Positions 2,427 through 50,435 of a stretch of 64,000 nucleotides of DNA are shown one piece after another (positions within the stretch are counted from its first letter, which is position 1; each line of letters starts with the position of its first letter). The notes below the pieces were generated by a model. That model was not told where the DNA came from, did no database searches, and saw nothing but the letters and a program-made list of their open reading frames with translations. Source of the DNA: Cycloclasticus pugetii PS-1. Lineage in GTDB: Bacteria; Pseudomonadota; Gammaproteobacteria; Methylococcales; Cycloclasticaceae. The translations under genes were made by a program, and so were the position numbers. The stretch spans positions 1,984,001 through 2,048,000 of the forward strand of contig NZ_ARVU01000001.1 in NCBI RefSeq assembly GCF_000384415.1. The letters are read 5' to 3'.

Positions 2427-3254
2427 ATGACAACCTACGCCATCGGTGATGTTCAAGGTTGTTATGATTCTCTTCGCCGGCTATTGGATAAAATTCAATT
2501 CGATCCTAACAAAGATCAACTATGGTTTGCTGGCGACCTCATCAATCGAGGTCCCAAATCATTAGAAACATTACGTTTTATCATCTCGCTAGGCGACAGC
2601 GCCCACAGTGTATTAGGTAATCATGAGTGCCATTTTTTAGCATCCGCACGTGGTCACAAGAAAGCACATCGCACAGATACATTTGCTAATATTTTAGAGG
2701 CTCACGATGCCGACCAGCTTATTCACTGGGTTCGGTCGCTTCCATTCTTACATCACGACAAAACACTCGGCTATACAATGATTCACGCAGGCTTGCCTGC
2801 CCCATGGACACTTGAAGATGCTAAACGATATGCAAAGGAGCTGGAAGCAGCCTTTCAGAGCGACTTATTCGATCCCTTTTTAGCAAGTATGTACGGTAAC
2901 AAGCCTACCCACTGGGATAACAGCTTGTCAGGTCATGCACGTTTGCGCTTTATTATTAATTGTTTTACCCGAATGCGTTTTTGCGATGAACAAGGACATT
3001 TAGAGTTTAAAGAAAAAGGTTCGCCAGCAGATAGTCCGCCTCACTTAATACCTTGGTTTGAAGTACCTAAGCGGCAAACAGCCCAGGAAAAAATAGTGTT
3101 TGGTCACTGGTCAACTTTAGGCCTCAATAAACAAAACAACGCCTTTTGTTTAGACTCTGGCTGTCTTTGGGGTGGCCAATTAAGCGCCATGACACTGGAT
3201 GGAACTGAGCGCATAATCTCGCTAGATTGTGACGCTTCATTAGAACCTTATTAG
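2427..3254 (+). CDS. apaH: Bis(5'-nucleosyl)-tetraphosphatase, symmetrical
   Basis: 275 residues. It hydrolyses Ap4A symmetrically to two ADP in the cytosol. Metallophosphatase motifs are in order: IGDVQGCYDSL at the N-terminus, AGDLINRGPKS, LGNHECHFLA, then a C-terminal IVFGHWSTLGL that carries a metal-ligand His. It is immediately downstream of apaG. The 3' end overlaps that of convergent folA by 4 bases (3251-3254), so there is no room for a conventional terminator between the two. Confidence 0.96.
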   Translation: MTTYAIGDVQGCYDSLRRLLDKIQFDPNKDQLWFAGDLINRGPKSLETLRFIISLGDSAHSVLGNHECHFLASARGHKKAHRTDTFANILEAHDADQLIHWVRSLPFLHHDKTLGYTMIHAGLPAPWTLEDAKRYAKELEAAFQSDLFDPFLASMYGNKPTHWDNSLSGHARLRFIINCFTRMRFCDEQGHLEFKEKGSPADSPPHLIPWFEVPKRQTAQEKIVFGHWSTLGLNKQNNAFCLDSGCLWGGQLSAMTLDGTERIISLDCDASLEPY

Positions 3255-3733
3255 ATTCGTCGATAGGTTATAAATGAATACGAGTAAGCGTGCTTTTCAT
3301 CCGCTTCATGCTTAACCTGCTCAACAACCTCCCAATCTTCGGCTTTGATCTCAGGAAAAAAAGCATCTGCTTCAAAATCTTGATGGACCACCGTTAAATA
3401 TAATGTCTCTGTCACCGGTAACATTTGCTCATAAAAACTTGCGCCACCAATGACCATCACATCATCAAATTCTTCCGTCGCTTCTAACGCTGCTGTAATT
3501 GAATGAACAATGACAATACCCTCAGCCGTAAAGTTATTATCACGGGTAATAACAATGTTTTTTCTGCCCGGTAATGCCTTTCCTATCGATTCAAACGTCT
3601 TACGCCCCATTAAAATAGGCTTCCCCATGGTGACCGACTTAAAATGCTGAAAATCTTTAGGTAAGTGCCAAAGCAGCTCATTATTTTTCCCAATGGCTCT
3701 GTTTTCAGCCATTGCAACAATCATAGAAATCAT
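3251..3733 (-). CDS. folA: Dihydrofolate reductase
   Basis: 160 residues, typical chromosomal DHFR length. It reduces dihydrofolate to tetrahydrofolate with NADPH, regenerating the cofactor that ThyA oxidises. [20 protein letters not shown] aligns with the E. coli start. WHLPKDFQHFK contains the acidic active-site Asp, GRKTFESIGKALPGRKN the NADPH-binding region and VMVIGGASFYEQ the second nucleotide-binding loop. The start ATG overlaps the thyA stop by one base (TAATG), implying translational coupling within lgt-thyA-folA. Confidence 0.97.
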   Translation of the reverse strand: MISMIVAMAENRAIGKNNELLWHLPKDFQHFKSVTMGKPILMGRKTFESIGKALPGRKNIVITRDNNFTAEGIVIVHSITAALEATEEFDDVMVIGGASFYEQMLPVTETLYLTVVHQDFEADAFFPEIKAEDWEVVEQVKHEADEKHAYSYSFITYRRI

Positions 3734-4527
3734 TAAATCGCGACCGGTGCTTTAATCCCGGCATGGGATTGATAACCAATGATCTCAAAATCTTCATACC
3801 GATAATCAAATAATGAGGCGGGCTTTCTTGCTATCTGTAATTGAGGCAACGCTAAAGTATCACGTGATAGCTGTAAATTTGCTTGTTCAAAATGGTTGCT
3901 GTAGAGATGCACATCTCCCCCTGTCCAAACAAAGTCACCAACCTCTAAGTTTGCTTGCTGAGCAACCATATGGGTTAACAAGGCATAGCTGGCTATATTG
4001 AACGGCACCCCTAAAAAGAAATCAGCTGAGCGCTGGTACAACTGACACGACAGTTTCCCATTAGCGACATAAAACTGAAACAATAAATGGCATGGTGGTA
4101 AGGCCATATCCGGTATCTGCCCCACGTTCCATGCACTCACTATCATTCGGCGAGAGTCGGGGGTGTTTTTAATTTGCGCCAACACCTCACTGATTTGGTC
4201 AATATTCTCGCCAGAAGGAGTTGGCCAAGAACGCCACTGGTGACCATAAACTGGGCCTAAATCGCCCTTATCATCTGCCCATTCATCCCAAATACTCACC
4301 CCGTGATCTTTCAAATAGCGTGTATTTGTATCGCCATTTAAAAACCATAACAGTTCATGAATAATAGATCGCAAGTGTAATTTTTTAGTTGTTACCAACG
4401 GAAAACCTTTCGATAAGTCAAAGCGCATCTGCCGACCAAACACTGACCGCGTTCCAGTTCCCGTTCTATCTTCTTTATCTGTCCCGTTATCGAGGATATC
4501 TTGCATTAACTCTAAATATTGTTTCAT
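3733..4527 (-). CDS. thyA: Thymidylate synthase
   Basis: 264 residues, the same length as E. coli ThyA. It methylates dUMP to dTMP with methylene-tetrahydrofolate. The N-terminus [20 protein letters not shown] and [18 protein letters not shown] are diagnostic; [13 protein letters not shown] carries the catalytic Cys and [20 protein letters not shown] the dUMP/folate-binding segment. The 4-base gap to lgt upstream and the 1-base overlap with folA downstream indicate one operon. Confidence 0.98.
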
Positions 4528-4531
4528 TAAC

Positions 4532-5305
4532 TTAGCCTTTTTGTTTTGCTTTCAGCATTAAGACGGCTCCTAACAGCAACATTGGCAAGGTCAAAATTTG
4601 CCCCATGGTTAGCCAACCAAATGCTAAGTAGCCTAAATGCGCATCGGGCAGCCGGACAAACTCAACCGCAAACCTAAAGGCACCGTAACCGATTAAAAAC
4701 AGGCCCGACACGCTCATCCTTGCTCTTGGTTTGCTTGAATAAATCCATAAAATAAAAAATAGCACAAAGCCTTCTAGTACCGACTCATACAATTGTGAAG
4801 GGTGCCTAGGCATATTACCTAACCCTGGCACTAGCATACCTAGCGCAAAATCAGTCGGTTTACCCCACAGCTCACCATTAATAAAATTACCAATTCGTCC
4901 CGCCCCTAAACCAATCGGTACCAAAGGGGCAATAAAGTCAGTCACTTCAAAAAAGTGATGCTGGTATTTTTTGCCAAACAGGTACATGGCAACAAGCACA
5001 CCCAATAACCCCCCGTGAAAAGACATACCGCCTTGCCATATTTTTAACAAAATAACAGGGTTATCGATAAAAGCAGGGAAGTTATAAAATAACACATAGC
5101 CAATACGGCCACCCAATACCACACCCATCGCCGCGTAAAAAATAAGGTCATCAATTTGCTGAACACTCCAGCCCACCTTTTTAGCCCTATACCGACCTAA
5201 CAACCATGCCCCCACAAACCCAACAAGATACATGAGGCCGTACCAGTGAACAGCCAATGGCCCGAGGTTGATCGCAACGGGGTCTATTTGAGGGTATACC
5301 AACAT
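4532..5305 (-). CDS. lgt: Prolipoprotein diacylglyceryl transferase
   Basis: 257 residues with about seven hydrophobic membrane helices. It transfers diacylglyceryl from phosphatidylglycerol to the lipobox Cys of prolipoproteins at the inner membrane. Signatures are [28 protein letters not shown] (essential His), [17 protein letters not shown] (the Lgt signature) and RHPSQLYES. It is the first gene of lgt-thyA-folA, an arrangement common in proteobacteria. Confidence 0.97.
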
Positions 5306-5506
5306 ATTATTTAATCCTTAAAGGGAGTAAATATTTTAGCGTGTGCACGCCAAGACATGCATCTTTTATTTAACGCAACCTGATTAACAAAAGTTATCGA
5401 TATTTTTAACATTTTTCTCATGTTAAATAAGACATGAAATCTAACAACAAAAATAACTATTGTGGCTACTCGAACAACTGACTAATATAAGAAATATAAA
5501 ATAAGC

Positions 5507-5806
5507 ATGATGAAAGGATTTACTGTACAAAGAAATGCCGTTGGTATGGTGATTAGCATCATCATTCGCACGGCTTGTAGTTAAGGACCCTTTGATCATT
5601 TTTAGCTGACAGGATTATACCATCCACAGATGAATTACTTCTTCTCGTCACTATTCAAGAAGCTGTCAGCGAAGTACCTGCTGCGGTCATTAAATACGTT
5701 AGTTTTTATTTAAACGGTGGTCGATTTTATAATTATTGCTTTCACTATTTTCATGGTTGTGAAGGCTATTAACTCAACAAAAATAAACGGTGCTTATCAA
5801 TGTTGA
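5507..5806 (+). pseudogene. mscL: Decayed mscL (large-conductance mechanosensitive channel) remnant
   Basis: Three fragments in shifting frames match the order of MscL. From 5507, MMKGFTVQRNAVGMVISIII resembles the start and first membrane helix, then runs into TAA at 5582. A second frame over about 5609-5716 reads SFLADRIIP and then EVPAAVIKY, resembling the end of helix 1 and the periplasmic loop. A third frame from 5717 reads VVDFIIIAFTIFMVVKAIN, a near-perfect MscL second helix, ending TGA at 5806. Frame changes and an in-frame stop make it non-functional unless sequencing errors are responsible. The tail overlaps the yjgR-like start at 5800. The 200 bases before it (5306-5506) contain the lgt upstream region and nothing else recognised. 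Confidence 0.8.
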
Positions 5807-7269
5807 ATGAATCTAACTTGTTAATTGGCGGCAACCTTACTGATCAAATAAAATTGAACCCTAAAATGGGCAATCGACACGGGTTGATTGCGGGGGCTAC
5901 AGGCACTGGAAAAACCGTGACACTTCAGGTGTTAGCTGAAGGGTTCTCCAAGCTTGGTGTCCCTGTCTTTATGGCTGATATTAAAGGGGACTTATCTGGA
6001 CTTGCTAACGCCGCATCAGCACACCCAAAAATCGAAGAGCGTATTAAGAAAATCAAAATAACAGATTATCAATCGCAAGCTTCACCAGTAGTTTTTTGGG
6101 ATGTTTATGGAAAACTTGGTCACCCATTACGCACAACTGTCAGCGATATGGGCCCGCTACTTCTATCTAACTTACTCGAATTAAATGATACTCAAACGGG
6201 TGTCTTATACGCCTGCTTCAAAATTGCAGATGATAACGGATTATTGTTACTCGATTTCAACGACCTTAGATCAATGCTGACATGGGTGAGCAATAACACC
6301 AAAGAACTAAAAGGCGAGTATGGCAATATCACCTCCTCCAGCATTGGCGCAATACAGCGTGATCTACTCATTTTACAACAACAAGGAGTAGAAAATTTTT
6401 TAGGTGAACCAGCCTTAAGGCTTGAGGATTTAATGCGTATTGACTGGTCAGGTCGAGGATTCATCAATGTGATGGATGTAACGCAACTCATGCACAAGTC
6501 ACCTCGTTTATACGCCACTATTTTATTATGGTTACTGTCTGAATTATTCGAAAACTTACCGGAAGTCGGTGATGCAGATAAACCAAAGTTTGTTATGTTC
6601 TTTGATGAAGCGCATTTGCTCTTTGACGATGCACCGGAAGCACTAACCGACAAAATCGAACAAATTGTAAGACTCATCCGGTCGAAAGGTGTTGGCGTCT
6701 ATTTTATCAGCCAAAGTCCTATGGATATTCCGGAAAATGTCTTAGGGCAATTAGGCTTACGTATACAACATGCCTTACGAGCATTTACACCTAAGGACCA
6801 AAAAGCTATCAAACTGGTGGCTCAAACGTTTCGGCAAAACCCAAACATTAATATTGCAACATGCATTGCTGAGCTAGGTATTGGCGAAGCCTTAGTCTCC
6901 ACACTTGACGAAAACGGTAGCCCTACACAGGTTGAGCGAACGCTCATTCGCCCACCTGAATCACAAATTGGCCCGATAAAGATGAAAGAACGCGCAGAAA
7001 AACTTGACCGTTCTCCTGTATCCGGAAAGTATGACACGCCTATTGATCGAGAATCCGCTCATGAGCTCTTAAAAATAAGAGCAGAAGAAGCAGAAAAACG
7101 TGCGCTCGATATTGAAGAAGAAAAAGCCAGAAAAAAACCCACTCGTAAGAAACCTCAACGCTCTACCAATAACCCAATGGACGCCATGATAAAAAGCGCC
7201 GCCCGAGCCATTGGAACTAAAATTGGCGGTAAACTCATACGCGGTCTCCTAGGTTCATTACTAAAGTAG
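5800..7269 (+). CDS. yjgR: YjgR-type HerA/FtsK-like ATPase (DUF853)
   Basis: 489 residues, close to E. coli YjgR. The family are P-loop ATPases related to HerA and conjugation coupling proteins; no cellular role is settled. GNRHGLIAGATGTGKT (Walker A, residues 32-39 for the core) is followed by LGVPVFMADIKGDLSG, FVMFFDEAHLLF (Walker B) near residue 270, and IRSKGVGVYFISQSP (sensor region). A Lys/Arg-rich tail (EEEKARKKPTRKKPQRS) precedes a hydrophobic C-terminus with IGTKIGGKLIRGLLGSLLK. The start has only a weak ribosome-binding site and overlaps the end of the mscL remnant. Confidence 0.9.
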   Translation: MLNESNLLIGGNLTDQIKLNPKMGNRHGLIAGATGTGKTVTLQVLAEGFSKLGVPVFMADIKGDLSGLANAASAHPKIEERIKKIKITDYQSQASPVVFWDVYGKLGHPLRTTVSDMGPLLLSNLLELNDTQTGVLYACFKIADDNGLLLLDFNDLRSMLTWVSNNTKELKGEYGNITSSSIGAIQRDLLILQQQGVENFLGEPALRLEDLMRIDWSGRGFINVMDVTQLMHKSPRLYATILLWLLSELFENLPEVGDADKPKFVMFFDEAHLLFDDAPEALTDKIEQIVRLIRSKGVGVYFISQSPMDIPENVLGQLGLRIQHALRAFTPKDQKAIKLVAQTFRQNPNINIATCIAELGIGEALVSTLDENGSPTQVERTLIRPPESQIGPIKMKERAEKLDRSPVSGKYDTPIDRESAHELLKIRAEEAEKRALDIEEEKARKKPTRKKPQRSTNNPMDAMIKSAARAIGTKIGGKLIRGLLGSLLK

Positions 7270-40161: not shown

Positions 40162-42543
40162 TTAAAAAGGTAACGCTATGTCCGCATTAATTTTCAACAT
40201 TTGTTCTCTAAATACATCTTTTATACGCTCTAACGACACCTCATTATCCGCTTCAAAGCGCAATACTAACGAAGGCGTTGTATTCGATGCTCTGACCAGC
40301 CCCCAACCATCTTTAAATTCAACACGGATACCATCAATGGTAATAACCTTAGCTTCGTCAAAGGTTGCCTGAGACTGCAATTTTTCAACAAAACTGAAGT
40401 TTTCACCTTCTGCCAAACTAATATTTAATTCGGGGGTGCTCACACTGTCAGGTAGTTCTGCAAAAATCTCGGCTGTTGACCTAAACTCTGCTGTCACAAT
40501 TTCTAATAGTCGTGCGGCGGTATATAAAGCATCATCAAAACCAAACCAACGCTCTTTGAAAAAGATATGCCCGCTCATCTCACCTGCAAGCTCTGCTTTA
40601 GTCTCTTTCATTTTAGCTTTAATCAGTGAATGCCCTGTTTGCGACATAATGGGCTTCCCGCCATGTTTGGCAATTACTTTGGCAAGGTTCCGTGTACATT
40701 TCACATCATAAATAATGTCCGCGCCTGCTTGTCTAGATAGCACATCAACCGCGTACAACATCATTTGCCTATCCGGCCAGATAATATTGCCATCCGAGTC
40801 AACCACGCCTAAACGATCGCCATCGCCATCAAAAGCTAAACCCAGCTCCGCCTCTTCCTCACGCACCTTGTCGATCAGCGTTTGTAAATTCTCTGGCTTG
40901 CTCGGGTCGGGATGATGGTTTGGGAAATTACCATCAATCTCACAATACAACGGAATCACTTCACAGCCTAACGTCGACAGTAGCATTGGGGCAGCCTCTC
41001 CAGCCACTCCATTACCGCAATCGACCACTACTTTCATCATTCTGCCTAAACGAACATCGCCAGTAATAGCACCAATATATTCAGGTAACATCATTTGCTC
41101 TTGGTAAGCGCCTTCACCAGTTTCCAAGTTATCTTGCTGAATGCGTTGATATAACTGCTGAATTGCCTCGCCTGACAACGTATTACCCGCAATAACAATT
41201 TTCAAGCCATTATAATTTGCTGGGTTGTGGCTACCCGTTATCATTACCCCTGATTGAGTGTCTAGCTGATGGGTTGCAAAATACAAGACGGGGGTTGGGA
41301 CTTGGCCAACATCTATCACATTACACCCCGCAGCTTGTATGCCCTTGGATAGTGACTCGCTAAGCCTTAGACTGTGCAGCCGGCCATCACGAGCAATCGC
41401 TATAGTCTGCTGACCTACACTTAACGCTTCGCTAGCAATCGCACGTCCAATCAAAAACACACCCTGTTCTGTCAATGTCTTATCAACAATCCCTCTAATA
41501 TCATATGCCCTAAAAATAGACTGCGGCACTTCGGCTTGGGTTACCACATCAATTACATCGTCTTTCATAAAAATTGGACCTGATGTTGAGTCACCCGCAT
41601 CAACACTTTCTTCCTTAATGCTATCGACGATTTGTTTATGTTCACGCGCCTCATCTTCTGGTGGGGAAATATCATCATCTTTCAAAACCAGCGGCTTTTT
41701 AGACGCCTTGCTTGTGCTTTGCTTTATCACCTCAACCCATTCTCGACATTTATCTTTATGTTTCACAAGGGCAAGCAACACCCCTGCAAGCAGCACCATT
41801 ACCAATGCTCCAACAAGGTAGGTAAACAACTCTGCTTTAGTAATAGGCGCTGCTAACGCTTGCCTTTTTATACTTATGCGCCAATGCGTTCCTGCTACTG
41901 GCACACTGCCAATACTCTCACCCATCTGATGCATTGAAGCGCCATCACCAACAAGCTTCAACGCACCTTGCTTAAGCGTTAAAAAACCCTCTTTTTCACT
42001 GCCTATGGCCACACTAAATGCCGTCTGTATGGCCGGCACCTCAAATGCGCCGAGCATCACTGCTCGCAGTGTCTCGCCGTCTAATACAGGTAGTGCTATT
42101 ACAACATGTTGATGGTCTGTCTCCATCATATGAACTTCTGGCATTTGAGCTTTCTTTGATGACTCTACTTTTCTAATTAGATCCAGCGTTGCATAGCCCA
42201 AGGGCGGCTTACTCGTCGGATCAACCTGCATCAGGTCCGGCTTAACAACTCGTAACGATACGATGTCATCTATCAACGCTGCTTGTGCTGCCACCCAATT
42301 TGTTGCCGCTGTTTCACCGCCGTCCAAGCCTTCAATCAAAGCTGGTGCTTTCGCCACATCCTCTAGGGCCTGACGCCACGCCCTTACTTTTGCTGATAAA
42401 GTATCACTCGCCTTTTCTGTCCGCTTGGTTAACTGTTCGGCTTGCTCAATATTTTGTTGGTCAATCTGACCGAGGTAAACATAGCCCGCACCACCCAAAG
42501 CAATAACAAGCAACATCAGCACAAGTATTGTTTTATTTATCAT
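40162..42543 (-). CDS. algC: Phosphomannomutase/phosphoglucomutase with N-terminal membrane sensor-like region
   Basis: 793 residues. The C-terminal part (about 335-793) is an AlgC-type alpha-D-phosphohexomutase: FRAYDIRGIVDKTLT, phosphoserine loop TGSHNPANYNG, metal loop FDGDGDRLGVVD, sugar-binding GEMSGHIFF. The N-terminal 270 residues have two membrane helices (about 5-26 and 238-262) flanking a periplasmic region, then a charged linker. Extended AlgC proteins of this kind are annotated in pseudomonads. It makes mannose-1-P/glucose-1-P for envelope polysaccharides. Followed by argB; dut is 3 bases upstream. Confidence 0.94.
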   Translation of the reverse strand: MINKTILVLMLLVIALGGAGYVYLGQIDQQNIEQAEQLTKRTEKASDTLSAKVRAWRQALEDVAKAPALIEGLDGGETAATNWVAAQAALIDDIVSLRVVKPDLMQVDPTSKPPLGYATLDLIRKVESSKKAQMPEVHMMETDHQHVVIALPVLDGETLRAVMLGAFEVPAIQTAFSVAIGSEKEGFLTLKQGALKLVGDGASMHQMGESIGSVPVAGTHWRISIKRQALAAPITKAELFTYLVGALVMVLLAGVLLALVKHKDKCREWVEVIKQSTSKASKKPLVLKDDDISPPEDEAREHKQIVDSIKEESVDAGDSTSGPIFMKDDVIDVVTQAEVPQSIFRAYDIRGIVDKTLTEQGVFLIGRAIASEALSVGQQTIAIARDGRLHSLRLSESLSKGIQAAGCNVIDVGQVPTPVLYFATHQLDTQSGVMITGSHNPANYNGLKIVIAGNTLSGEAIQQLYQRIQQDNLETGEGAYQEQMMLPEYIGAITGDVRLGRMMKVVVDCGNGVAGEAAPMLLSTLGCEVIPLYCEIDGNFPNHHPDPSKPENLQTLIDKVREEEAELGLAFDGDGDRLGVVDSDGNIIWPDRQMMLYAVDVLSRQAGADIIYDVKCTRNLAKVIAKHGGKPIMSQTGHSLIKAKMKETKAELAGEMSGHIFFKERWFGFDDALYTAARLLEIVTAEFRSTAEIFAELPDSVSTPELNISLAEGENFSFVEKLQSQATFDEAKVITIDGIRVEFKDGWGLVRASNTTPSLVLRFEADNEVSLERIKDVFREQMLKINADIALPF

Positions 42544-45526: not shown

Positions 45527-45557
45527 TAAAAAGCCCGTCAAATTGACGGGCTTTTTT
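45527..45557. terminator. Bidirectional terminator between rpmG and the Rieske gene
   Basis: AAAAAGCCCGTCAA/TTGACGGGCTTTTTT is a nearly perfect stem with runs of A and T on both flanks. It overlaps the stop codon of the minus-strand Rieske gene at 45538. Confidence 0.92.
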
Positions 45558-45930
45558 CGAGATCAAGTAATGCAATATAAGACATTCCGTCTTTTTCAAT
45601 AAAGCTCAATGCCTTTAACCACTTCCCGTTACATGGCCCAGCAAAACACTCGCCATCTTGTGTTTTAAACATCGCCCCATGAATAGAGCATTGAATATAT
45701 AAACCAGTTCGGCTTAAAAACTGGTCTGGCATCCAGTTCAATGGCGCCCCTGTATGGGGACAGTTATTCTTATACGCTCTCAGCGTCATGTCTTGCTCGC
45801 GCACAAAAAAACCACTGCAAGCACCTTTATCACCCAAGTCGACTTCAAATGCTCTGGAACTTAGGCTTGCTAGCGTTTCAACTTCAACCGCAGCCACATA
45901 TTCAACACCATCTTTTTGTATTATTTCCAC
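45538..45930 (-). CDS. Rieske [2Fe-2S] domain protein
   Basis: 130 residues, essentially one Rieske ferredoxin domain with no signal peptide or membrane helix, so a cytosolic electron carrier or regulatory subunit. Cluster ligands are in NNCPHTGAPLNW and YIQCSIHGAMF (C-x-H ... C-x2-H). Its start overlaps the end of the 1504-residue coiled-coil gene by 10 bases, so translation is likely coupled. Physiological partner unknown; no oxygenase large subunit lies next to it. Confidence 0.88.
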   Translation of the reverse strand: MEIIQKDGVEYVAAVEVETLASLSSRAFEVDLGDKGACSGFFVREQDMTLRAYKNNCPHTGAPLNWMPDQFLSRTGLYIQCSIHGAMFKTQDGECFAGPCNGKWLKALSFIEKDGMSYIALLDLEKSPSI

Positions 45931-48900
45931 CAGCCCTTTTTCTTTTCTTTTTGTGTTTTCTCAGGAAGCACTTCTTGGTTTGCTAACGTTTGCATCGTCA
46001 AGATCTTTTTCTTCAGCGCCAAATTCATTTTTTCACTATTTTCTACTTTTAGCTGCATTGCTTGGATATCTTTTTCTGTTTGCTCCCGAACTAAATCTAG
46101 CTCTGACTGAAGTGCTTTAAGAGCATTTTTCTCTTCTTCACTGGGTTCTTCTACTACATCGCTAGAGGATGTCTCTAGTTTTATCTCAAGATCCAGCAAC
46201 ATAGTTGACGCCTCATCTAACTGTTTTTCCAACTCTTTTATTCGTTTTTCTGCTGGACCACTCTCGATCGCACTAGACGCATTTCTTTCCATCTTTTCAA
46301 GTTGATGCTTCAACTCATTATTGTTGTTATTAATATCCGCCAGCTTCTCTTCCAGGGCCGCTTTTTCGTGCTTATCGGTCTCAAGTGAGCTCATTAGCTG
46401 ATCTAATCTTTTTAATGTTTCTTTCTCTGCATTTTGTGCCGTTAATAGTTGCTCAGTTAACTGAGCAGTTTTTTCATCTGCATCATTATGCGCCTCGATC
46501 AACTGTTCTTTTTCCACTTTAAGGCTTTTTAGCGATTGCTCCAGCTCAGCCATTTTTTGCTGTGATACGTTAACAACCTTATCACCCGATAATTTAAGTT
46601 GCTCTAACTCTGATAAGGCGACGCGCATTTCTTCTTTTTCACCAACCTTGGAAGATAAGTTTGTTTCCGCTTTTTGTAGAGCAATACGCTCTTTTTGGAG
46701 GTCATTTTCTGTCTGCTGAAGCTGGTTTTCTAACGCCTTTAACCGCTCTTCAAACATCCGTTCTTTATCTTGCTGTTTTGACACTTGTAGAGCTAAAGCA
46801 TTGTTCAGTTCCTCACAACGCTGCTCAGCGCTATCCGCTAAAGTGCTCATCGCTTTATGCGCCTTTTTAGACGTCAACAACTCTTCTTCCAGTTCTTTTT
46901 TTAGCGATACAAACTCATCCATCTCAGTTTGTTTTAACTCAACCGTTCGTGTTAATTCCACAGACTCATTGCGCGCTTTTTCTAGCTGCACCAATAATTC
47001 TCGTTGATCACCCGTAGCACTCGATAAAACTGCTTCTGCATCAAATAGTTTCTGTTGCAACTCTTCTTTCTCAGCTTGTACTGACATCAACTGCCCTTCG
47101 CTAAGCTCCTGCTGCTGTTTGACTTTTTTTAGCTCTGTGTCCAACTTGTCAAGTTGTTGAACATGAGCTTCATCGAGCTGTCGCGTCTGTTCGAGCAATG
47201 ACTCTTCTAATGCTTTCAACTGGCCTTTGAGCTGCTCTAACGAGTCTGCTAATTTAGCATTCTTAGCATCCTTTTCTTGGATGATCATTTTCGTTTCTTG
47301 ACGCTCTTGAGACAGCTCTGCGGTGACTTTTTGTTGCTCAATCAACAGACTATCAAGCTGAGATTTAGTGACTAATGACGCTTGCTCTGCAGCTTCTTTT
47401 TCTGACGCTAATTTATTAAGTTCCTGCGCGCTTTCAGCCTCAGCTCTTTGCAGCATGTCCAACTCGGCTTCAAGCATATCGGCCTTTTGTTGTAACTGCC
47501 TAACATCACCCTCTTTTTCCTTAGTCAACGAATTAAACTCTACGTTTCTTTCTTGAAGTTTTGATTCGGCCTGCTGTAGCAACTTCGTTAAACGTAATAC
47601 TTCAGCTTCTCCGCCTTCACGCAGCTCTTCAAGCTTTTCTTGCGATTCATCTAACTGTTTGCTTAATTGTTGCTGCTCACCCTGCCTCTGCGCCAACTGT
47701 TTTTCCAAGGCTATTAGGCTTTTTTGGATAGCTTCCTTTTCACTCACTTCGCGATTCAGTTGCAGCTCAACATCTTGTTGCGTTGTTAGTGCTACTTTGG
47801 CATCATTTTGCGCCTCGGCAAGGCGCTTCTTCAACTCACTCTCTAACGACTCTTTGCCTGAGCTTATTTCACTCAGAGAGCTTTCTAGGGCAATCACCTG
47901 CTGACGTAGTTTTATCGCTTCTTTTTCAAACTGTTCTGTTCGAGCCTCTGATTCATTAAGCGACTCAGCCAACGCCTTTTCTGCTTGCGATTTTTGTTGT
48001 TTAAGACTGTCAACCTCTGTTAAGTAGTTATCTTCGTTACTCTTTAGCTCATCGGTCAATTCTCGCAATTCATTTAACTGTTCAGCTAAAACTGTTTTTT
48101 CAGCCAACACATTCGATAAATGACTGTCCGACTGTGCTAGCTTTTCTTCTAAAGCAGCTTCCTCAGCATTCATTGCAACAGACTGTTCACGCCATTCAGC
48201 CAACAGCGTATCTTTTTCTAACACAGCGGACTCTAGGTCCTCTCGTTCTTGACTAAACGCCTCAAGTTTTTTCTCTGCCGTTTCTAATACCTTCGTCAAA
48301 GCCTCAAGTTTAGTTGTCTTTTCATGCAGGGTTTGGTCGTACCCCCTGCTTTTCTCTTTCAATGATTCACAGGTTTCCGCCAAGACGCCTAACGCCTCTG
48401 TTTGCTTTTCTAACGCTGTATCTTTTTCTTCTACTTGTTGTGTTAACGCGTTTATATCGCTTTCAAGCTCTTGGCGACGCGCATCAGCCTCTGCTTTATT
48501 TTTTTCTATCGCATCGTTTTGCTTTTCTTTTAACTGCTCTAGTTCATGCCTAGTCTGTGAAAGTTGGCTCTCTAATTGTGTTTGCAACTGGCCCGAGCTC
48601 TTTATAGTCGAACGCATTTCAGACAATTGGGAATTTAACTGCTGAATTTGATTATCTTTCTCTAAGTTAGCCGCTTCCTTATCATTAATCCGCTGTTTAT
48701 TTTCTTCTTCCAGTTTAGTTTGAGATTTAAGTAACCCGCCCATTTCGCGCTCAGTCGCCTCTACTTTTTCTTCCAAGGCCTTTTTTTGGTTTCTTAATTC
48801 GATGGCTTCTTGTTTTGCCATCGCCAACGTTTCCTTAAACGTTGTTGTCGTTTCTGCCTCTCGAGTATTAATATCACTGATCGTTCGTTTAAGCTCATCG

Positions 48901-50435
48901 AGCTCCTTATCCTTCGCCTTAATGTCTTCGCCTAACAGGCTAAGCGATTCACGAGAACTCTCCATCGCTTGCTGCGCCTTATCCAGCGCTAGGGCTTTAT
49001 CTTCCAGTTCTTTTGAAAGCTGCAAACCTGCTTCTTTTTCAGCAAGCAGCGCCTGGCTCATTTCCACCTCACGGTCACCATGACCATTGCGCAGCGCTAG
49101 CAGCTCGTCTGACACACGCTTTGATGATAATTGCAGCTCAGCGACTAGGGCTGCTTGTTGCTCATATTGTTGCTGTAAGCCCCTACGCTCTAACTCAAGC
49201 TTATTAGACCTTTCATTTGATTGCGCGCATAATTTTTCAAGCTCTGCTATTTTACGTTGCGCCTCTTCTAACTGCTTAGCATTCAAACTGTCAGCATTAC
49301 TAACCGTCGCACCTTGATTCTCATTTGATGTTGTCGCAACGGCTGATAACGGCACCTCTTTTAAGGACAATTCTGGTGCCTTTTTCTTGCTCTTACTGGT
49401 AGACCTGCTAGCGATTCCTCCTTTCAAAATCAGCGCATTAAAACCAAACTTCAATAGTAGAAATGCTGCGGCCTCACTGGTTCGACCATTGGAGCAGACC
49501 AATACTTGTAATTGATCGTGACGCAATTCAGCGATTTTCATTCGTAACGAAAAGAAGGGGATATTTACACTGCCGTCAATATGATCATCAACATATTCAT
49601 CGACCCCTCTTACATCTAACCAATTAGCACCCGCACTGACTTTTTCCTGCCCTTCTTGAAAGTTTACATATTGTAATACTGGCTCTTTAACCAACTTGAT
49701 GAAGTTAGCTTTTGATAGGCGAAGCATTTGCCCCTTGCCTTTCATTTGAACCGTTACATTCCTTGGGTTGCCTGATAGCAGCGCATCTTCGCCAAAAGCA
49801 TCACAGCTATGTAACTCACCCAACTTGATTAACCGCGCACCTTCAGAAGGCTGACGTATCAATTCACAACTACCTGTTTTAATGATGTAATAAAAATCCG
49901 CCTCATCCCCTTGTTTAACAACAACCTCACCCGGTTCAAAAGCGACCTCTTCCATCTGCATCATTACTTTTTGTAAATTTGATGCGGGCAACCGTTGAAA
50001 GACCGGCGATTGCAACATCGTTGTCATCCAATCGCCACTATGGTCTTCAACGTCATCTACCAAATAGGTTTGCCCATTATCTTCGGGGTTATCCATATCC
50101 AGCATATAAGTAGGAACTCGCACAATCCTCGCTTTAGATTTCGTCACTGCTCGAACTTTACGGGGCAATTGGTGGGCGATTGCAAAACGCGCCACTTCCG
50201 AACCTGTTACGATGGTTTCCATTTCCATCTCACCGGCAAATAAGCTAATCATTCCGCTGATCAAATAGATAAACTCTTTAGCATCATCCCCTTGCTCAAA
50301 TAACACCGTTCCCTTATCGCACTCTTCAATAAGACATTCATTGCAAATAGTCGAAAAGTGGCCGCTTGGTAAGGTGTTTAAAGGAATAAATTTCCTTAAA
50401 ATATGTTGGTTATCTTGATGTGGTCTCACGCTCAT
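45921..50435 (-). CDS. Giant protein: two cNMP-binding folds, rhodanese domain, ~1100-residue coiled coil
   Basis: 1504 residues. Residues 12-110 resemble a cyclic-nucleotide-binding beta barrel (KGTVLFEQGDDAKEFIYLIS) but lack the FGE...R phosphate cassette. Residues 142-255 are a second barrel with EPGEVVVKQGDEADFYYIIK and a good cassette, FGEDALLSGNPRN. Residues 257-345 are a rhodanese fold (WLDVRGVDEYVDDHIDGSVN) with active-site Cys314 in VLVCSNGRTSEAA. About 385-1485 is uninterrupted Glu/Gln/Lys/Leu-rich coiled coil with almost no Pro; the tail is basic (KEKKKGWWK). No signal peptide or TM is seen, so a cytosolic scaffold is likely. The next gene encodes a Rieske protein. I do not know this architecture from a characterised system. 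Confidence 0.9.
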   Translation of the reverse strand: MSVRPHQDNQHILRKFIPLNTLPSGHFSTICNECLIEECDKGTVLFEQGDDAKEFIYLISGMISLFAGEMEMETIVTGSEVARFAIAHQLPRKVRAVTKSKARIVRVPTYMLDMDNPEDNGQTYLVDDVEDHSGDWMTTMLQSPVFQRLPASNLQKVMMQMEEVAFEPGEVVVKQGDEADFYYIIKTGSCELIRQPSEGARLIKLGELHSCDAFGEDALLSGNPRNVTVQMKGKGQMLRLSKANFIKLVKEPVLQYVNFQEGQEKVSAGANWLDVRGVDEYVDDHIDGSVNIPFFSLRMKIAELRHDQLQVLVCSNGRTSEAAAFLLLKFGFNALILKGGIASRSTSKSKKKAPELSLKEVPLSAVATTSNENQGATVSNADSLNAKQLEEAQRKIAELEKLCAQSNERSNKLELERRGLQQQYEQQAALVAELQLSSKRVSDELLALRNGHGDREVEMSQALLAEKEAGLQLSKELEDKALALDKAQQAMESSRESLSLLGEDIKAKDKELDELKRTISDINTREAETTTTFKETLAMAKQEAIELRNQKKALEEKVEATEREMGGLLKSQTKLEEENKQRINDKEAANLEKDNQIQQLNSQLSEMRSTIKSSGQLQTQLESQLSQTRHELEQLKEKQNDAIEKNKAEADARRQELESDINALTQQVEEKDTALEKQTEALGVLAETCESLKEKSRGYDQTLHEKTTKLEALTKVLETAEKKLEAFSQEREDLESAVLEKDTLLAEWREQSVAMNAEEAALEEKLAQSDSHLSNVLAEKTVLAEQLNELRELTDELKSNEDNYLTEVDSLKQQKSQAEKALAESLNESEARTEQFEKEAIKLRQQVIALESSLSEISSGKESLESELKKRLAEAQNDAKVALTTQQDVELQLNREVSEKEAIQKSLIALEKQLAQRQGEQQQLSKQLDESQEKLEELREGGEAEVLRLTKLLQQAESKLQERNVEFNSLTKEKEGDVRQLQQKADMLEAELDMLQRAEAESAQELNKLASEKEAAEQASLVTKSQLDSLLIEQQKVTAELSQERQETKMIIQEKDAKNAKLADSLEQLKGQLKALEESLLEQTRQLDEAHVQQLDKLDTELKKVKQQQELSEGQLMSVQAEKEELQQKLFDAEAVLSSATGDQRELLVQLEKARNESVELTRTVELKQTEMDEFVSLKKELEEELLTSKKAHKAMSTLADSAEQRCEELNNALALQVSKQQDKERMFEERLKALENQLQQTENDLQKERIALQKAETNLSSKVGEKEEMRVALSELEQLKLSGDKVVNVSQQKMAELEQSLKSLKVEKEQLIEAHNDADEKTAQLTEQLLTAQNAEKETLKRLDQLMSSLETDKHEKAALEEKLADINNNNNELKHQLEKMERNASSAIESGPAEKRIKELEKQLDEASTMLLDLEIKLETSSSDVVEEPSEEEKNALKALQSELDLVREQTEKDIQAMQLKVENSEKMNLALKKKILTMQTLANQEVLPEKTQKEKKKGWWK

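Follow-up and report, generated by a model that had tools for sequence, protein, structure and literature searches.

CbpA (PA4704) of Pseudomonas aeruginosa is an effector of cyclic AMP (cAMP) and not a transcription factor. It carries two cyclic-nucleotide-binding (CNB) folds, a degenerate N-terminal one and a functional C-terminal one, and localizes to the cell pole in a cAMP-dependent manner. According to a 2024 review, CRP is in most bacteria the sole route of global regulation by cAMP, P. aeruginosa having a further effector in CbpA (PMC11139211). Family 2 encapsulins have a cNMP domain and a rhodanese as accessory gene (PMC8346489). Here we analyze a gene pair of Cycloclasticus pugetii PS-1, a marine bacterium that degrades oil, located in a stretch of 64,000 nucleotides (the window; G000:C1:1984001-2048000, GC content ~43%) of its 2.38 Mb, single-contig genome. 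The first gene codes for a protein of 1504 residues, hereafter the giant, whose first ~345 residues pack two CNB folds and a rhodanese (the head) and are followed by a coiled-coil rod; the second codes for a single-domain Rieske protein (Table 1). The parts of the giant are known, and the family as a whole is widespread and apparently undescribed: a literature search, outside of which most subscription papers fell, found no description of this architecture. The window giant is a variant of that family devoid of the transmembrane-like helix and of the formylglycine-generating enzyme (FGE) domain that many long relatives have. We give an even chance to the reading of the giant as a non-transcriptional cAMP effector in which a membrane-attached coiled-coil rod would carry a cAMP-binding, rhodanese-bearing head.

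The putative receptor head and its family

The Pfam profiles cNMP_binding (E 7e-24, over two stretches) and Rhodanese (E 7e-12) match the giant and the Rieske profile (PF00355, E 1e-10) matches the small protein, all above the curated cut-offs, in agreement with the domains named in the original prediction. The second fold, CNB-B, has a cassette (FGEDALLSGNPRNVTV) with the Glu and Arg of protein kinase A (PKA)-type cassettes. CNB-A had been described as a fold without a cassette. It misses the cassette Glu but its own cassette (ARFAIAHQLPRK) is conserved, which defines it as a conserved variant rather than a cassette-less fold; the presence of two cNMP folds, one with an intact cassette, is upheld. 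A phmmer search with the head retrieved first a Toxoplasma multi-CNB protein (9ya0, E 8e-31) and next PKA RI-alpha (E 6e-21), which is also the best PDB match (E 4e-19) of an AF2 model of the head (mean pLDDT 81, pTM 0.66). The domains match those of PKA but, with TM-scores of 0.3-0.5, their arrangement is unsure. The giant has in common with RI-alpha the tandem CNB folds and the CNB-B cassette, and differs from it by the CNB-A cassette, by the fusion to a rhodanese and a rod, and by the kinase partner, none having been found for the giant.

As in CbpA, a canonical cassette is found solely in the second CNB fold. Orthology to CbpA was assessed using a PrrF neighbor as proxy and is not supported: the CbpA-like protein beside PrrF in G221 (locus L206; a counterpart by position only) has neither rhodanese nor coiled coil, unlike the giant, and aligns to its head (E 2e-5) across CNB-B only. 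At L206 this two-CNB, rhodanese-less protein lies on one side of the PrrF RNA gene and, farther off on the other side, there is a Rieske gene whose product is 43% identical to that of the window. The Family 2 encapsulins present a similar theme, but no capsid domain was identified by Pfam in the giant or in the Rieske protein.

The rhodanese scores 46.1 bits against PF00581 (cut-off 22.2 bits), with Cys314 in the loop CSNGRTS, sequence features that bear out those originally described for an apparently active domain. The corresponding cysteine is retained in 91 of 100 heads and lost in the other nine. GlpE/PspE-type rhodaneses have the same active-site Cys loop (PspE match E 1e-9, 38.6 bits versus a cut-off of 102), whereas the rhodanese of the giant is embedded in a receptor head. 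A catalytic domain is somewhat more likely than not. The C. pugetii genome codes elsewhere (L254, C1:1641272-1641514) for a 412-aa protein combining a CNB fold that has a CNB-A-like cassette (EARFPIDNTSPHQATA) with a further domain which we take to be HDOD-like, and CNB-A matches of 415-495 aa are recurrent.

Defined as a match to profile A1 with E ≤ 1e-33 (a threshold that we set), the head is present in 170 of 369 sampled Gammaproteobacteria, either solitary or with tails of up to ~1600 residues. Three kinds are seen repeatedly: solitary heads, ~345-420 aa in length; orthologues from Methylococcales, many of which adjoin degP and whose tails have 91 to 1425 residues; and long giants. Among the matches listed there are at least 41 open frames with a length of ≥1000 aa, showing that the long fusion, originally thought to be unfamiliar, is widespread. 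The long-tailed loci were chosen deliberately, and proportions of tail lengths are thus not frequencies. In a 105-row tree the Methylococcales heads, including those of Cycloclasticus, form a clade set apart with strong support, outside of which fall the short heads L092 and L093; some of the trees hold two rows per genome. One short head gene (383 aa; L200, G192:C1:3069000-3078000, 2937-6973) and a class I adenylate cyclase gene are convergent, with 102 bp between them; the genome that holds this pair encodes a long giant ending in an FGE domain as well (L199).

Such an FGE-sulfatase fold terminates 26 of the long giants examined (three confirmed by Pfam). These FGE giants have the same head and rod as the window giant and often a downstream Rieske gene, but carry in addition a transmembrane-like helix and the FGE domain, often with a PfkB gene; the window giant has none of these, a Pfam scan finding no FGE domain in it. 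Formylglycine-generating enzymes have catalytic cysteines at an expected position. A role of the domain as a formylglycine-generating oxidase was rejected because none of the 26 tails has a Cys in the ~8 residues that follow the RGG motif, and it is more likely a binding fold. The sole FGE-sulfatase match of the C. pugetii genome is in a protein of ~711 aa (L257, C1:191929-192687) that presumably resembles OvoA-type sulfoxide synthase-methyltransferase fusions.

Table 1. Features of the giant-Rieske locus (positions within the window).
Feature	Position	Strand	Characteristics
Giant gene, 1504 aa	45921..50435	-	CNB-A, CNB-B, rhodanese, coiled-coil rod, conserved foot, KKKGWWK tail
CNB-A, first cNMP fold	50112..50324	-	Pfam PF00027 match (G000:C1:2034112-2034324); variant cassette ARFAIAHQLPRK, no cassette Glu
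CNB-B, second cNMP fold	49686..49946	-	Pfam PF00027 match (G000:C1:2033686-2033946); matches to PKA R-subunits
Intact phosphate-binding cassette of CNB-B	49749..49796	-	FGEDALLSGNPRNVTV, residues 214-229, E216 and R225
Rhodanese domain	49407..49649	-	~residues 263-343 (PF00581, residues 268-342); Cys314 in loop CSNGRTS
Coiled-coil rod	45966..49280	-	~residues 386-1490; period ~3.525; ~164 nm if one continuous helix
Conserved foot	45924..46280	-	residues 1386-1504; ~65% identity in the genus versus ~29% in the rod; motif ELxxVREQ
Basic/aromatic C-terminal tail KKKGWWK	45924..45944	-	codons shared with Shine-Dalgarno-like stretch and Rieske GTG
Overlap of giant stop and Rieske start	45921..45930	-	10 nt, GTGGAAATAA
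Rieske gene, 130 aa, single domain	45538..45930	-	GTG start; CPH...CSIH cluster motif and extra conserved Cys pair C95/C100
Terminator-like hairpin (intrinsic type)	45528..45556	-	spans the end of the Rieske gene

Cyclase co-occurrence and the probable nucleotide ligand

A class I or class III cyclase is encoded in 167 of the 170 head-bearing genomes and in 89 of the 199 headless ones. Conversely, the head is found in three of 113 genomes without such a cyclase and in 167 of 256 with one (Fisher p 6e-34, no phylogenetic correction); two weak PF01295 matches (G375, G402) were left out of the cyclase counts. Restricting the comparison to genomes of at least 2.5 Mb (sizes read by hand, as was the count of 37 head-bearing genomes below this size), the figures are 130 of 133 versus 53 of 83. 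Head-bearing genomes that lack class I code for a class III cyclase in 69 of 72 cases. The 61 Methylococcales genomes comprise 37 with both the head and the class I cyclase CyaA, ten with the head only, two with CyaA only and 12 with neither, and the Glu/Arg pair of the cassette is found in all 30 heads from CyaA-positive genomes compared with four of eight from CyaA-negative ones. No class III cyclase was found in any of 18 Cycloclasticus members, making CyaA the likely cAMP source in the genus. Genus members G015 (99% complete) and G016 (98%) lack both head and CyaA, as does the metagenome-assembled genome G002, while in G006 (58%) CyaA is present and the head absent, possibly due to missing sequence. 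In another family, G025 and G031 have neither the head nor any of the two cyclase classes and their sister G018 has the head and a class III cyclase. In favor of cAMP, the C. pugetii genome also has what we take to be a Crp/Vfr-like gene, beside an apparent trpC. The nucleotide sensor on a long scaffold postulated originally is supported by the fold, the cassette and the cyclase co-occurrence, and the head of the giant very probably binds cAMP or cGMP.

A number of observations weigh against cAMP as the ligand. Five of the ten head-only Methylococcales genomes are at least 90% complete, and the incompleteness of G002 (73%) weakens its testimony. The four heads that hold the Glu/Arg pair in CyaA-less Methylococcales do so without that enzyme, and the pair is kept in 24 of 28 heads of genomes without a class I cyclase; inversely, Lys replaces the cassette Arg in the L203 head, found in a CyaA-positive genome. 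Heads without any cyclase found occur in Methylococcales G003, G011 and G029 (80-87% complete) and in G144, G267 and G300 of the class sample. The cases of G003 (80%) and G011 (83%), for which no CyaA was found, concern a partial head and a head that lost the cassette Arg, respectively. To this is added the lack of phylogenetic correction in all presence/absence tests. In Cycloclasticus P1, two CRP-type CNB regulators, DPR-1 and DPR-2, bind c-di-GMP and not cAMP (PMC8547461). This precedent could suggest that cyclic di-GMP, or another nucleotide, is the ligand of the giant. We consider it very improbable: the PKA-type Glu/Arg pair present in the giant is, by eye, missing from most other CNB proteins of its genome, and the head co-occurs with adenylate/guanylate cyclases and is co-absent with CyaA.

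Rod, foot and possible membrane attachment

The hydrophobic residues of the giant have a period of 3.53 over residues 346-1504 (windowed power 1.20 versus 0.34 ± 0.05 in 300 shuffles) and only five Pro are found among the 1159 residues of its tail, as foreseen for a nearly Pro-free coiled coil of ~1100 residues. Tandem repeats were rejected as the source of its length (a single weak 33-bp row). An SMC-like protein was rejected as well: the match to SMC_prok_B reaches 52 bits for a cut-off of 567 and is confined to the coiled coil, the only feature shared with SMC/Rad50-like ATPases, as no ATPase domain was found in the Pfam scan of the giant. Ten other genus members are on average 68-83% identical to the window giant in the CNB and rhodanese parts, 42% in the first 100 rod residues, 25-34% (with many gaps) in the next 900 and ~65% in the last ~120. 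Rod length varies, and yet the best period is 3.51-3.54 in all 11 members. With a constant period, ~29% identity and a conserved head and foot, the rod seems to be kept as a rod while its sequence and length are free, and by this profile it is a spacer between the two. The foot motif EL..VREQ or a near-form, followed by a transmembrane-like helix, is found in eight other Methylococcales orthologues (L075, L086, L088, L089, L090, L097, L117, L184). In one Methylococcales group (L086-L090 and L175) the helix is followed by an acidic C-terminal stretch that contains a DLF/ELF motif (EEDLFAE, GDLFDSE, GELFAQ).

Transmembrane-like helices were defined as a 19-residue mean hydropathy above 1.6. All 26 FGE giants have one between the coiled coil and the FGE domain and, outside the genus, so do 51 of the 61 relatives examined whose tails exceed 150 residues (25 of the 35 that are not FGE giants). 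Non-FGE proteins with tails of at least 60 residues, near-copies removed, have a helix in 25 of 104 cases, most of the others having tails shorter than 150 residues. Among Methylococcales proteins, a helix is found in 12 of the 13 whose tail spans 150-500 residues, in none of nine with 60-150 and in one of 13 with more than 500, eleven of these 13 being from Cycloclasticus. The window giant has no such helix (best tail hydropathy 0.53), and the Cycloclasticus branch seems to have lost its membrane anchor. The description of the giant as cytosolic thus suits this branch and fails for most longer-tailed relatives. Other helix-less giants, without a Rieske overlap, have basic/aromatic ends (GRLFRRK in L186, GRLFRKK in L185, GGLFKKKKDS in L179), which favors a role of the tail at the membrane surface. 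On the other side stand the identification of helices by hydropathy alone, the helix-less long proteins L183, L201, L204 and L205 that end without a basic/aromatic tail, and the KKKGWWK tail itself, whose sequence is in part imposed by the Rieske start that overlaps it: its codons also provide the purine-rich Shine-Dalgarno-like stretch and the GTG of the Rieske gene, accounting for part of the conservation of the tail. We regard the arguments for and against attachment of the window giant to the membrane as balanced.

The Rieske gene and the reading of the locus

The 1504-residue giant and its Rieske neighbor are as originally described, with an overlap of stop and start that measures 10 nt. 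In all 11 genus members in which both genes are on the contig at the locus, a GTG that could serve as start of the Rieske gene lies among the final codons of the giant; an in-frame TTG is found upstream of it in four of them. The Rieske start directly follows the giant stop in G018, which belongs to a different family. The Rieske protein has the CxH...CxxH motif and the Rieske fold (its model is of ferredoxin type, pLDDT 87). The ferredoxins of aromatic oxygenases (T4moC, NDO, CarAc) have cluster motif and fold in common with it (TMt ~0.7-0.8), but it is only ~20% identical to them, no oxygenase lies alongside, and it has the extra pair C95/C100 (GxCxxGPC type). This pair is present in nearly all untruncated members of this small Rieske family, both linked to a giant and, for the most part, unlinked (in L060 and L061 C95 is missing or lies beyond a truncation); in the family tree the row L206_lnk is mislabeled and duplicates the unlinked L206.

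Linkage, defined as a Rieske gene on the same strand at -300 to +1500 bp, was found for 31 of 100 complete head proteins, a lower bound since a number of contigs break off shortly beyond the giant. It concerns 30 of 51 proteins with tails of at least 600 residues versus one of 49 with shorter tails (L118; Fisher p 1e-10, phylogeny not considered), none of 19 short solitary heads, and 16 of 26 FGE giants, whose Rieske gene is at most ~1.1 kb downstream. On the tree linkage requires 12 changes; an independent-pairs test yielded four pairs on supported branches with none opposite, which is not significant. G015 has the order degP-DUF6524-Rieske-rpmB-radC intact (rpmB by eye) without the giant, G002 retains only a foot remnant before its Rieske gene, and G025 and G031 keep a Rieske gene without a head. 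The retention of the Rieske gene in G015 and G002 after loss of the full giant indicates that its product has a role of its own, rules out an obligate partnership and renders an obligate assembly unlikely. In other families PfkB and YjbQ-like genes are often found between or beside giant and Rieske, so that their linkage may reflect a wider neighborhood; RadC is a neighbor of the giant in Cycloclasticus and also of three giants (L190-L192) from a different family. The linkage named originally is real and deep, extending to the FGE giants of other families, but it is not obligatory, and part of the family lacks it, a situation that the original description itself counted as contrary evidence. 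In the region of the window 11 terminator-like hairpins were identified while 6.2 are expected from shuffles. Neither the giant nor the Rieske protein had a match in PADLOC, and a defense-system identity was dropped. A neighboring gene (window 40162-42543, minus strand) codes for a 793-aa protein with a membrane-like N-terminal region and a second domain, presumably phosphomannomutase/AlgC-like.

The proposal made originally was that giant and Rieske protein form one redox/sulfur signaling assembly, in which the Rieske cluster would exchange electrons with the rhodanese persulfide under control of the nucleotide. The overlap of the two genes in the 11 genus members that hold both at the locus and the preference of the linkage for long tails, FGE giants included, speak for it, but the genomes that keep a Rieske gene without a giant or a head, the solitary heads without a Rieske neighbor, the non-significant independent-pairs test and the occurrence of this small Rieske family elsewhere, e.g., beside PrrF, make the assembly unlikely. 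A functional contact of the two proteins is somewhat less doubtful, and redox/sulfur coupling between them is hypothetical. The Rieske protein would most simply be an electron-transfer ferredoxin that works with or near the giant and that can exist without it. The rod might alternatively be a purely cytoskeletal or polar-organizing spacer, in which case the head would only be a docking site under regulation and the rhodanese a binding domain without catalysis. Such a spacer would be expected to diverge in sequence and vary in length while the head and foot that flank it are conserved, and the more than tenfold range of tails in orthologues beside degP would suit it as well; the loss of the rhodanese Cys in some heads and the cAMP-dependent polar localization of CbpA point in the same direction. 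The conservation of this cysteine in most heads argues against it, and we hold this possibility to be marginally less probable even than that of the assembly.

In the effector model that we prefer, the rod, probably a parallel dimer, would bear the head at its N-terminal tip and be attached to the inner membrane by the conserved C-terminal foot. Attachment in most longer-tailed relatives examined would be achieved by the transmembrane-like helix, beyond which there is often a domain of FGE fold, predicted to be periplasmic. In Cycloclasticus the helix was presumably lost, and the foot with its basic/aromatic tail may dock onto the surface of the membrane or onto a membrane partner. CNB-B would bind the cAMP produced by CyaA, with a resulting change of the head as in PKA R-subunits; at the tip of a rod that may reach ~160 nm, this may alter the accessibility of Cys314, the contacts between heads, or both.

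Provided that its members bind cAMP, the family would constitute a widespread type of cAMP effector in Gammaproteobacteria that does not work through transcription, and its rod tail differs in length more than tenfold among orthologues adjoining a single gene, degP. We advance only tentatively that it represents a new kind of second-messenger effector: a membrane-rooted rod (100-230 nm if all helical) would place a sulfurtransferase switched by cAMP far inside the cytoplasm, many long relatives having a periplasmic FGE fold that may allow inside-out or outside-in signaling, and Cycloclasticus would have a version that lacks the helix and is coupled in translation to a Rieske carrier. The finding opens testable questions on the span of the rod, on the target of the cAMP switch, and on the possible involvement of sulfur transfer or of the Rieske carrier.

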